DNA of 64,000 bases, taken from positions 11,864,466 to 11,928,465 of the forward strand of contig NC_092322.1 in NCBI RefSeq assembly GCF_036785885.1, given 5' to 3'. Shown here piece after piece: positions 35,397 to 41,300 of the stretch. A program made the position numbers and the translations under genes. Position 1 is the first letter of the stretch. Each line of letters begins with the position of its first letter. Under the pieces are notes generated by a model, which saw only the letters and a list, made by a program, of their open reading frames with translations, was not told the DNA's origin and searched no databases. The stretch comes from Coffea arabica (Eukaryota; Streptophyta; Magnoliopsida; Gentianales; Rubiaceae).

Positions 35397-38300
35397 TCAT
35401 ATGGTATGTGACCTTGGTGGTGGCTTGTAATTGTAATATGCATTTATAGCTGTCAAACTTTTCTGCTTAACATCCTCGTACATTTTCTGTGAAGCCTCAG
35501 AAAACTTGGTTAGACTGTCCAATACCTTTGCCAAACTTGTTTGTAAGCAATTCAAATTTGCAGACCTGTCATCAATTTTCTCGTCATTGTTGCACTCCAA
35601 TTCTCCATTATTGCCAGCTTCGGGCATGTTTTCTTTCTGGGCTGGTTCATCAGCTTGATGTCCAATTGAGTGGCGAAGATCAGATAAAAAGGCTCTGATT
35701 GCATCACTAAGTTCTTGTGATGGCAAACATTTGATGCCGGCAGACAACTCACGACAGAGTACGAATATTGGTGGTGCTAAAACTGGACGAGGAGAAAATA
35801 CTCTTCTGCCCTTGTATCCTTCTTGAGGCTGCAAGATGCAGTTCTGTAGCCAACTGTTTAGAGCTTCTACATATGATGTGAGACTGTTGATCCAATCAGC
35901 AAAACTCAAGCCAAAACATTCTACTTCATGTAGCAGCTGCAACATGATATCCTTGTGCGCATCTCCTTGGGCAGTCCCTCCCGAGGTCTTTGAATGGTAT
36001 GCTAACGAGATGGTTATATACTGTGTATAATGACACTCAAGCATCCATTTCCACATCCAGATTAATCTGCTAAGGAACACCAATGACAAAATTCAAACTA
36101 TGAGAGTCCTAAACCAACTAAATTTAGTTCCAGTCTTCAAATAACTGGAGAGCTGGTACTCGTGATTCATGTACCAACCGAAAGGATCTTGAAAACCAAC
36201 AAAGTACAAACTTTATACGTTTAAAAGCAAAGGTAATGCAGAAGGAATCTCACCCTTGAATAAGTTCCAAAAGTTGGGGCAATAATTCATCATCCCTCAG
36301 TCTCTCAATCCGCTTTGAGATTGAATCAACAGCATGAAGGGCAACTGTAATTCGTGAATGCAAATGTTTTACCACAGCTCGGGTTTTGTCAATTACTTGG
36401 GCACTAAGATCCTTTGCAGATTGGTGCCTGAGCTGGTTGCACTTTCGGTCATACTCCTTCTGGATAGATTCACTGGCCTACAAAGGTAAATTGAAAAAGA
36501 AGTGAGGTTCAAAATACATCTATAGGACAGAATGCTCCAATCTGAAAATGAAATCTAAGAAGCTATGTTGCAATCTGCTAATATCATTCATCCGAAGCAA
36601 AAAATTCATTGAAATTCAGATGTTATACCACATGCAAGTGAATCCGTCCTTCGCATAATACCATAGGAAACTTAAAATCATTTTCACATAGTGAAATTAC
36701 TCCATACCAAGCTGCAGTCATGTTTAAACCCAATTGAATTAGATTAGTTTACTCAAATCTCTGATCATAGGGTGATCCACTGGTTAGACTGACAGATAAT
36801 CTTGTTCAAAAGAGTGTCACATGATCTTTAAATTAGTTAAATGTAGAGGGTAAATCAATTATCAGATGTTTGATAGTGTAAGTAAGAAATTAACTAATAA
36901 GAAATAATTATTGGTTATTGGTGGAATTTCAAAATGTTTGATTTGTGGAATAGAAGAGGACAGAAGAGTCTTGGATGATGCTTTAGGACATAGCACCGAG
37001 TTTTATATGCTGAACCTGCAAAAATTGAATGTCAATCTCTATAAGAGAAATGACACTCCAAATAAAACAGATCGAGACTATGTTGTTGCCCAATTAAATT
37101 TAAAATAGGGTAAAATACACAAAACCTCCTTGTGGTTTGACTATTTGACACACTACCTCCTCATTATTTAAAAACACCCACACTACCCCCTCGTGCTTTG
37201 GACTAGAGTAGAATTACGCTTTTTGAGCTGCTATTGAATCGGTAGTCTGTCTATTATTAATTTTTTCTTTTTCATTTTATTTTCTTTTCCTTTCCTTTTT
37301 TTTTTCTTTTTCTATTCTTCGTCTCCTTCTTCCTCCGTTCCACATTCTCCACAACCCACAACATCGAAGCAAGGGGGTCTTGGCATCTGCTCATTTTTTC
37401 ATTTTCACATTTTCTTTCATTTTCCTCCTCTCTCCTGCTCCCCTTCCCCCCTCCACCATTTCACACCACCATCCCCTCCACTAGAACTTTGCACTACCAT
37501 TTCACACCACCATCCCCATCTCCGCCCGAACCACCACTTCATACGACCATCCTCTCCACCCAAAGTCTAAAATCCTGCAAATTTGGAGTACCATAATATG
37601 AGAGGTAGTGGGTCAGTTTGTACTTTTATGTATTGCTACAGATCTAGTCCCCCACGGTAAAAAAGGGCACCACCGGATCAGCCATCAAAGACCCAAAAAT
37701 TGGGTAGAGGAATTCTACAGGCGGGTCTCATTTTTGCTACGGTTTCGGGGAGAAAGAAGAAGAGGACTTGTAATTGTAGTCTAAAACCGTTCTTAACATT
37801 TCTTCTCTTTCTTTAATCTTTATCTTCCGCCTCCGTAATCTGCATCCCCACATCCCTTATATCTACACCGTTCCCACTCACCGCCTCTCCTATTCATCAA
37901 CTGCGTTCTACATCCTGCAATTCTTTTCCAGACGGACCAAAACAATGGATCCTTGTCCATTCGTCCAAATTGTGATTGGAAACTTGGCGGTGAGGCTTTC
38001 TCCCCCATCCTCTTGGTCTAAGTCAACGACCACCATGACCCTGTGTTACTGTAAAATCAAGCTCAAAGGCTTCCCAATGCAGTATTCGACAGTCCCGTGG
38101 CTTTCTCAGGAGAGTGGTACTAATGCAATTGAGAGCAGGATTCATGCTGGGTTTAACTTCAAGAAGTTGGAGTTTGAGAAGCTTGTTAAGAAATTGGCTG
38201 CCAGAGGTAGGACTTGTGGTTTGAAGATTGAGATATATACGGGAAAAGGAGGGAATACTTCTGCAGCTTGCGGGTGGAAGTTGGGTGGGAAATTTTTGGG

Positions 38301-41300
38301 CAGTGTTTTGGTGCAGCTGGACTTGAAGGCAACGGAGCATAGTAATAAAGGGTGCGTGATTCAGGATGGATGGATTAGTACGGTGGGCGGTGGGAGGGGA
38401 AAAGTGGTTGAGTTGCACGTAGACGTGAGAGCTGAGAGATGAGCCAGACCCAAGATTTGTGTTTCAATTTGAAGGGGATGCTATTTTCGCTCATCTGATT
38501 TGTCCACTTTTTCAAGAATTTTATGATGGAAGCTTATGAAATTCATGAAATTTTTTCTCGGATATTTGGGTGAATTTGGATTTTGGAGCCATTGTTTTGG
38601 AAGAATCTTTGAAGACAAAGTCGTGTGTGGTGGTGGCGACTAATCAGTAGAGAAAGATGGCGGAGCAAAAGTGAGAGGGTATGAATAATTTTTAGAAAAT
38701 TTTAAAAGTGCATCACTAATTATAAAATTTGTAAAAATACAAATGATAATTAAGTCAAAGCACCAAAATTAAAAGAAAAATGACAATAAAATAAAAAACA
38801 TTAAAAAAATAATAATACATCACTTGTAGGTAGCATACAGGTTACCGGTCAAATTTCACTTTAGTCCAAAGCACGAGGGGGTAGTGTGGGTGTTTTTAAA
38901 TAATGAGGAGGTAGCATGTCAAATAGTCAAACCACAAGGAGGTTTTCTGTATTTTACCCTTTAAAATATTATTCACTGACCCTAAAAGTTAGAGGAAGAA
39001 CCTCAGCGATTTGTCAAATATTAATCGACCATATAATACTCTGGCTTCAGTTCATAGCGACTATACCAATTTTTTGTTTAAACGAGAAATGTTTTTGGTT
39101 CAATTAGTTTATATTGACACTGCACTTTCGCGATCCTGAAAATAAGGAAAAGAACACACTAGAAAAAACTTTACATATATGTATGTATGAAGAACCAAAG
39201 ACACCCAAACATCCAAAGAATATCTAAGGACTACATTTCTGTTGTTTAGTCAATGAAATTTTCATATAACTTTACTTCTCAAAGGTGTCTCAATCTTCGA
39301 TTATACCATCATGGAAAAATAATGGTACGACACTCCATTGACATCAAAGGACAAGCCCCATTCTCCAAAATGCTATAAGTGTCTAAACGCTATTAATCTC
39401 TTACTTAAGGAAGGCTGAAGGAGAAAGGGACTACTTTAGGCTTTGGCAGGAAATAATTTTGATAATTCAACAATTAAGGGGCTGGGAAAGCAACACCTAA
39501 TGACAAAGAACAAACAGAAAAGTCCTTTAAAGTTGACTGTACTATCTTTTGTGTTTGTGTTTTTCTTTTGTCACTATTATTTTGCTTTTTCCCACACCTG
39601 CTGCCTTCCATCTGAAGATTTCATCCTAGATAAGTTGCTTAGATGTACCACCAAAAGAAGTTAGAAGAACGTATGTACATACCTTCATATTTTGATGCAA
39701 ATGAAATATCAAAGGAAAACTGATATAATATGACTTAAAAGATCAAAGTACAAGTTATATGAAAAGTTGAAGATGCAGGAGCTTTAAGCATCAAAGAAGT
39801 TCGCAAGGAAAAAAAGGGAATTAACTTTATTAGAGCCAAAGAAGTGTAGCAAAAGACAGAAAACAATGTATGCTCATCTACACCAATTTTCATTCTGAAT
39901 CAGCAAGTGCAATATGCCATTTAAAGCCATGTCATTCAACAGACTTTGAACTTCAGTACATGAACCAACTTGATAACCTAAGGAGTCTATACAACAAGAA
40001 TTATCATGAACTTGTTGACAGGGAAAAACCTTGAGAACTTACAGGATTTAACATAACAAGAGAATTTTTCAACAGAGACAGACAAAAGCAACACAAAAGA
40101 TGTACCTTGACTTCATCATATAACTTCCTCTCCCATGCATAGAGTCTATCCAAGGTAGAAGAATGACTTCCAGCAGCCATGCAGTACTCCTCCATGAAGT
40201 CACTACTACTACCGTCATTGTCATCTTTAGTAAGAGGATTTCTTGAAGAAGAGGACCTTGAAGATGTTGTCCGCTTCCACGTAATAATCTTTGTTGCATG
40301 CTGCTCTGGATCTGCTCAAGTATAAGAAGTTTTTTAAAAAAATAAATAAAAAGGAGCATAGTCAATCACACATGTTTGTGAAGAAACCTTCTCTTTTGTC
40401 ATCATTACCTTAAAATCTACAAACTTGAACTCATCGATGAAGAAAAGCTCCACCACTGTTGCAATTTATATAAATCTAAGGAATTCTTGCTGAACTAGAC
40501 ACCAAACCTTATTTTATCATATCTCCAAGTCCAAAGGAACAATCACATTGTCATAATGGCTGGGGATGGAGCACAGATAAACAAATAGTATGCATTCAAG
40601 AATGTATACTTAAAAGTGCCGGCGACCTATCTCAAACAACACACGACCTTATTTAATTAGAACCTTCTCAATGTCTAAACTTTGCTTAGTGGAAAATTAC
40701 AAATGAAATTCCATAACATCATTGATGTTAACAATGTTTTCTTAGAAAAAAGAAAAAGTAAATAAAAACTCACCATCAGATACGTTTGCATTTTTCCCTT
40801 GGCAGCAAGCTGTTTTGAAAGAAGCCAGATAAACTGCAACTGTTGCTTTTCCTACAAGAATAATGTAAGCTCAGCATTTGCAACTAGAAAATTTGCCATA
40901 AGAAGAGGCACATGCAATAATCCAAATGTTACTTTACTAAAAAGTAGTTAATAAACATGTCAATATCACCAACAAATAGTTACCTTTAGCTTCAGCATAT
41001 CCAACTTGGATTTTATTCGCCTCAAGCATCCTAGAAATTCCTTTCCCTGATTCAGATGCTTTGGAAAACCAGTGCTCAATGTCCTTTATACTAGGCAGAA
41101 AATCTTTAGCCCTGTGAGTAATGAACTCTGAAGGATCCTCTCTGTCAGTGCACACGTCCTTCCCCACTGCAGACTTATCTCTCCTGGAGATTAACTGCTC
41201 AGAACCTGTTTTGCCCACTGATGTTCCAACAGAGCCATTCCTTTTTGATTCTATGTTCATATCCTTAACTTCAGTATCAACTACTGGCTGAGGACTACTT

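Follow-up and report, generated by a model that had tools for sequence, protein, structure and literature searches.

A non-autonomous Pack-MULE of Coffea arabica with a DUF1005 gene fragment placed inside a putative older U-box fragment

Background

Pack-MULEs of rice, tomato (PM-ZIBP) and other sources are Mutator-like elements (MULEs) with long terminal inverted repeats (TIRs) and target duplications of 9 to 11 bp. They lack a transposase, hold a fragment of a host gene, occur in several copies and have an identifiable parent gene, and Pack-type elements that combine sequence of two or more loci are reported as well (relevant passages of PMC8903248 and PMC3310237). The element described here is alike in all these points. 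It lies in a 64,000-bp stretch of the Coffea arabica genome (C13:11864466-11928465, the window), where it occupies positions 37108-38959 (1,852 bp), with inverted ends, a target duplication and a 5' fragment of a DUF1005 gene. It is almost certainly a non-autonomous Mutator-like Pack-MULE with nested captures, first of a U-box fragment and then of the DUF1005 piece, followed by multiplication. From the described Pack-MULEs it differs only in detail: the second capture lies inside the first, cargo-free shells survive, and homeologous empty sites exist. The kind is known, and this example of it is well documented, with an unusually complete record. Our literature search found no paper that combines Pack-MULEs with DUF1005.

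Multicopy Pack-TIRs of animals are also alike in having donor DNA within a TIR element, a small loss at the joint and repeated transposition. Their internal gaps are small (median 4.6% of the element), and the origin mechanism is called perplexing. The multicopy cases there have no orthologous unfilled elements, whereas paralogous unfilled shells are found here (all animal data from the relevant passages of PMC8277862).

Structure of the element

The initial annotation described 98-bp inverted ends with three mismatches, a 9-bp duplication on both sides and no transposase, and all of these hold. The TIRs match at 95 of 98 positions, with positions 13, 44 and 45 differing, and a repeat search extends them to 109 nt (94%). 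The TIR pattern was controlled with shuffles, random inverted 98-mers and base composition; among up to 400,000 random inverted 98-mers drawn from the rest of the window, none matches at more than 56 of 98 positions. The target duplication TTTAAAATA is exact and not longer than 9 bp, and the chance of an exact 9-bp flanking repeat is about 9e-6 from base composition. No transposase domain was found in 13 scanned reading stretches of the element (4 + 9, some overlapping).

The DUF1005 fragment had been recognized from an open reading frame (ORF) beginning MDPCPFV. This 165-aa ORF matches PF06219 (E 1.8e-35, profile 1-163 of 436), confirming the family; the captured DNA is longer than the ORF. 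Profile positions 163-177 are matched by a 30-aa stretch in the next frame (E 0.0067, under the family cut-off), and because this stretch continues the profile the fragment is frameshifted. The parts of the element are as follows.

37099-37107: left target site duplication (9 bp, TTTAAAATA), exact; single copy at the C14 homeolog
37108-37205, plus strand: left TIR, 98 bp, extending to about 109; supported by sister ends
37206-37667: left shell part, T/C-rich; common to cargo-free sister elements
37668-37779, minus strand: putative older captured U-box gene fragment, coding side, antisense to the DUF1005 piece; from ORF 37644-37727 (minus strand) and BLAST
37780-37788: 9-bp filler at the left capture junction; neither shell nor parent matches
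37789-38478, plus strand: DUF1005 gene 5' end, captured, with 156 bp ahead of the ATG and about 175 codons; from parent alignment
37945-38442, plus strand: open DUF1005 reading frame, 165 aa, cut off early by the frameshift
38427-38440, plus strand: frame-shifting 7-bp tandem duplication (GAGAGCT then GAGAGAT), common to three of the seven sister copies
38479-38594, minus strand: second half of the U-box fragment (leader and start region); BLAST over 38509-38594, gapped alignment and shells over 38479-38508
38595-38861: right shell part, A/T-rich towards the end
38862-38959, minus strand: right TIR
38960-38968: right target site duplication TTTAAAATA, exact

Helitrons have neither terminal inverted repeats nor target duplications, so the TIRs and the 9-bp duplication rule out a Helitron. 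A retrocopy is a spliced copy with a poly(A) tail. Here the cargo starts 156 bp before the ATG, ends inside exon 1 and has no tail at the joint. The captured stretch is intron-free, so an RNA may have been its template.

Parent genes and capture junctions

The genome searched comprises 1,197,963,845 bases in 131 contigs. The parent gene that the initial annotation proposed to look for is present, in the form of likely donor genes on C4 and C3. Window 37789-38478 matches C4:18564305-18564987 (93%) and C3:18641917-18642599 (92%) in a single alignment interrupted solely by the 7-bp duplication, 690 bp in the window element corresponding to 683 bp in the parents. From their reading frames, both parents look like two-exon genes with open exons. 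The exon-2 profile match of the C3 gene holds one TGA, and since it starts 51 bases ahead of the open frame it probably reaches into the intron. Two exons are the usual structure of the family (relevant passage of PMC9001952).

The capture junction can be read directly. Six cargo-free shells match the element up to its position 672 and resume from position 1372, with 19 bp between. In the element these 19 bp are replaced by a 9-bp filler (TCTAAAACC), which occurs in neither shell nor donor, and by the donor piece. The right joint reads GGGGATGCC in the element, GGGGAGCC in the donor and ACTTGCC in the shell, so that at most GCC is common to donor and shell within one base of the joint. Among animal Pack-TIRs, 67.6% have microhomology at one or both ends (relevant passage of PMC8277862), whereas here the left joint has the filler and the right one only GCC. 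The capture probably occurred by repair of a break with a foreign template. The six shells (L028, L054, L055, L056, L057 and L058) also carry a tandem duplication of a segment matching element 1372-1586, which adjoins the later capture point.

The initial annotation overlooked a further piece that surrounds the DUF1005 piece. On the minus strand, 37668-37779 and 38479-38594 can be aligned to the leader and start region of a C7 gene that encodes a U-box protein (542-aa ORF) and has a near-copy on C8. BLAST against these two genes gives 81-82% over 37668-37767 and 73-77% over 38509-38594. The U-box is clear in the C7 and C8 genes (E 1.1e-10) and weak in the 27-aa remnant of the window (E 0.092, below the cut-off). 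The first piece is matched by 12 places in the genome at 79-82%; only C7 and C8 match the second piece too, and they are therefore the best donor candidates. Judged by these alignments, the DUF1005 piece appears to have split an older antisense U-box fragment, so that the captures are nested.

Sister elements and empty shells

Sister elements, the other thing to be looked for, are abundant. The search of the genome with the left TIR lists 41 matches, from the best 40 of 307 candidates scored, which is a lower bound. The DUF1005 cargo is present in eight elements, namely that of the window and copies C19, C15, C4a, C4b, C3, C6 and C16. An independent genome search with PF06219 recovers the same eight (36 of 36 candidates scored; 31 matches in total, counting the parents and other DUF1005 genes). 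Copies C19, C15, C4a, C4b and C3 align with the window element over its full length at 95.3-96.3% identity. C6 has an internal deletion and its right end was not found in the search; the halves of C16 are about 19 kb apart. Nine of 19 sister elements checked have exact 9-bp target duplications and one has an exact 10-bp duplication, five match at 8 of 9 positions, and four match worse; for three of these four the coordinates used fall 1-3 bases short of the element end. Among the flanks of the seven sister cargo copies only those of C15 and C16 match one another, and the right flank of the window element matches over its length only its own place and C14. The cargo elements thus include independent insertions of one mobile element. 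The anatomy, parentage and mobility of a Pack-MULE are all observed. Parent genes, sister elements and an empty homeologous site support the reading of the initial annotation, and the lack of parent and sister copies that would have spoken against it is not seen.

A sister branch (L012, L015, L017, L018, L019 and L062) has the same ends and different contents. Part of these contents matches C7:17124124-17124486 (94%) and C8:16475116-16475478 (93%), which are candidate places of origin. An open stretch in this branch (e.g., L017:1127-1570) holds MKLSFSLSSK, which may resemble MOS2; the Pfam scan of the stretch gave no match. L012 has two TIR copies adjacent at one end (L012:501-597 and 607-704; C2:51305878-51306081), like the tandem-TIR MULEs in the relevant passage of PMC3310237, from which the window element differs in having single ends.

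Empty sites and timing

Near-identical loci are found on the neighbouring-numbered contigs C3/C4, C7/C8, C11/C12, C13/C14, C15/C16 and C19/C20. In the homeologous intron on C14 the site is empty, with one exact TTTAAAATA and unbroken flanks at 96.7% and 94.6%. The site of C4a is empty at C3 and that of C19 at C20, in the same clean pattern. The insertion in the window therefore most likely occurred after the subgenome lineages parted. In contrast, the flanks of C15 and C16 are 94.6-95.6% alike and represent one common insertion. Because C15 and C16 share it, the capture and first spread took place before the lineages parted, and because the window, C4a and C19 insertions are absent from the homeologs, spread continued afterwards. 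For three further shell insertions, identical 14-bp left flanks on neighbouring-numbered contigs (L017/L019 on C4/C3, L016/L025 on C9/C10, L018/L022 on C11/C12) likewise make those insertions appear to predate the split. For Coffea canephora and Coffea eugenioides, the relevant passage of PMC11018527 gives a split of 4-6 million years.

Two observations weigh against this timing. The C3 site corresponding to C4b lacks the element and also about 20 bp around it, which imperfect excision would fit too, and contig C19 holds two additional copies, at 96%, of the flank of its insertion. As for the copy at C3:63.5 Mb, its right flank matches C4:63522182-63522678 at 94%, within repetitive sequence.

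Cut-and-paste elements can excise. The window insertion could thus be older than the split and have been lost from C14 by precise excision, in a family that was active before the split (C15/C16) and that left an altered C3 site opposite C4b. This is very unlikely, since C14 has one exact TTTAAAATA within unbroken flanks, the C4a and C19 sites are equally clean, and no other of the eight elements has so few changes of its own as the window copy, which departs from a majority-rule ancestor at 9 of 683 cargo sites. An insertion after the parting remains the preferred explanation. The initial annotation had deduced recent activity, and with it a possible polymorphism between individuals, from the near-identical ends. 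A recent insertion is upheld, for which the empty homeolog and the few own changes are the better evidence; the ends are no clock, because the other five full-length cargo copies show TIR mismatches at 7-17 of 98 positions (ungapped comparison) and the two ends may have been unequal at insertion.

The parents differ at 21 of 683 sites. With fragments included, divergence is 4.7-10.2% between copies and parents and 3.2-11.8% among the copies; full-length cargo copies differ from parents by 6.0-7.9%. The cargo tree places the parents together (support 88), C6 with the parents (99) and C15 with C16 (94). Its other nodes have support of 22-85, and a sub-lineage is therefore defined here by the 7-bp duplication.

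Fate of the cargo

The frame-breaking 7-bp tandem duplication is found only in the window, C4a, C4b and C3 copies. Since they share it, these copies multiplied with the frame already broken. The DUF1005 stretch is fully open in one of eight elements, C19, where a 195-aa frame extends into shell sequence. Changes from the majority-rule ancestor (nine rows, C16 entered as two halves) comprise 42 silent, 75 replacement, 4 stop and 28 leader changes. The silent share is 0.347 against a neutral expectation of 0.321 (p 0.56). With a broken frame and no sign of selection, the DUF1005 cargo looks like dead weight. A point against this is the low power of the neutrality test: the 17 coding differences between the two parents, of which 6 are silent and 11 are not, look neutral over this stretch as well, so that weak constraint would go unnoticed.

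One could suppose that the DUF1005 piece functions as a living chimeric gene, which selection maintains and whose usefulness drove its spread. The open frame of C19 would fit, and MULE ends can carry promoters (relevant passage of PMC3310237). Set against these are seven elements of eight that are not open through the stretch, four that were copied along with the same broken frame, a silent:replacement:stop ratio of 42:75:4 that fits neutrality at the power stated, and the prevalence of C>T/G>A changes; we consider a living gene highly improbable.

C>T/G>A changes make up 104 of 149 cargo changes. Of the 149 changes among copies 129 are transitions, whereas the parents differ from one another by 9 transitions in 21 changes (p 2.6e-5). 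Such an excess is expected of methylated repeats, and suggests methylation of the copies. Another way for the cargo to matter would be through RNA, if the fragments were transcribed and the transcripts gave rise to small RNAs silencing either the DUF1005 parents or the U-box genes. Several copies have long stretches resembling the two open parent genes, the window copy is antisense to its host gene within an intron, and the copies are probably methylated. However, a methylation signature speaks for silencing of the element and not for action on the parents, and we hold this to be unlikely. Dead weight is still the description that the cargo best fits.

Source of the transposase

MULE transposase domains are common in the genome. 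In the best 150 of 2,147 candidates scored, all 150 are over the cut-off and many are in open frames. An autonomous partner was not found, which also counts against the overall reading: none of the 150 listed transposase places is closer than 10 kb to any of the 41 TIR matches listed, both lists being lower bounds. The nearest listed pair, compared by eye, is about 69 kb apart on C2. Because no autonomous partner is among the listed places, membership of the superfamily rests on the TIRs and the target duplication.

Two longer sister elements, L016 (5.5 kb) and L022 (4.6 kb), came into question as autonomous partners but were rejected. The longest stop-to-stop frame is 152 aa in L016, where two frames were domain-scanned without a transposase, and only 128 aa in L022. 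Since they have 14-bp flanks in common with the shorter homeologous L025 and L018, respectively, nested insertions would probably account for their length.

Host gene and other features of the window

The host of the insertion is a DUF630/DUF632 gene; the element is intronic, and its cargo is antisense to the gene.

36478-40105, minus strand: intron of the host DUF630/DUF632 gene, 3,628 bp, inferred from reading frames and GT/AG sites

The exon boundaries are placed at 36477 and 40106, with GT and AG present at the predicted splice sites. Elsewhere, a tandem array at 55616-56302 has a 243-bp unit in 2.8 copies (88% matches). Two related stretches of about 300 bp (15153-15455 and 43163-43519), 28 kb apart, are in inverted order with two blocks 80-84% alike. 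The latter has 41-nt inverted ends starting TACTCCCTCCGT, which we take to resemble those of a Stowaway-type miniature inverted-repeat transposable element. Rfam and tRNA scans of the window gave nothing.

Conclusions

The history of the element may be outlined as follows. A transposase-free shell family appears first to have acquired an antisense U-box gene fragment. Later, inside the U-box fragment of one shell, 19 bp were lost and the 9-bp filler and about 690 bp of the DUF1005 5' end gained, as comparison with the shells shows. The filled element then spread by transposition, making target duplications of 9 or 10 bp, and reached at least eight insertions, beginning before the subgenome lineages parted and continuing after, with transposase presumably supplied from elsewhere in the genome. 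The window copy most likely entered the DUF630/DUF632 intron in one lineage only.

A wider and unlikely idea is that this is a serial-capture MULE lineage: an antisense piece of a U-box gene came first, the DUF1005 5' end was set into its middle next, and the sister branch took in different material, probably from a third gene. Were the copies transcribed, one mobile family would link the small-RNA control of unrelated gene families.

How Pack-MULEs acquire genes is still debated. With unfilled shells, filled elements, donors and an empty target in one genome, a capture can be read base by base and dated against the split of two subgenome lineages. The multiplied, frame-broken cargo argues that such elements spread without need for the cargo protein.

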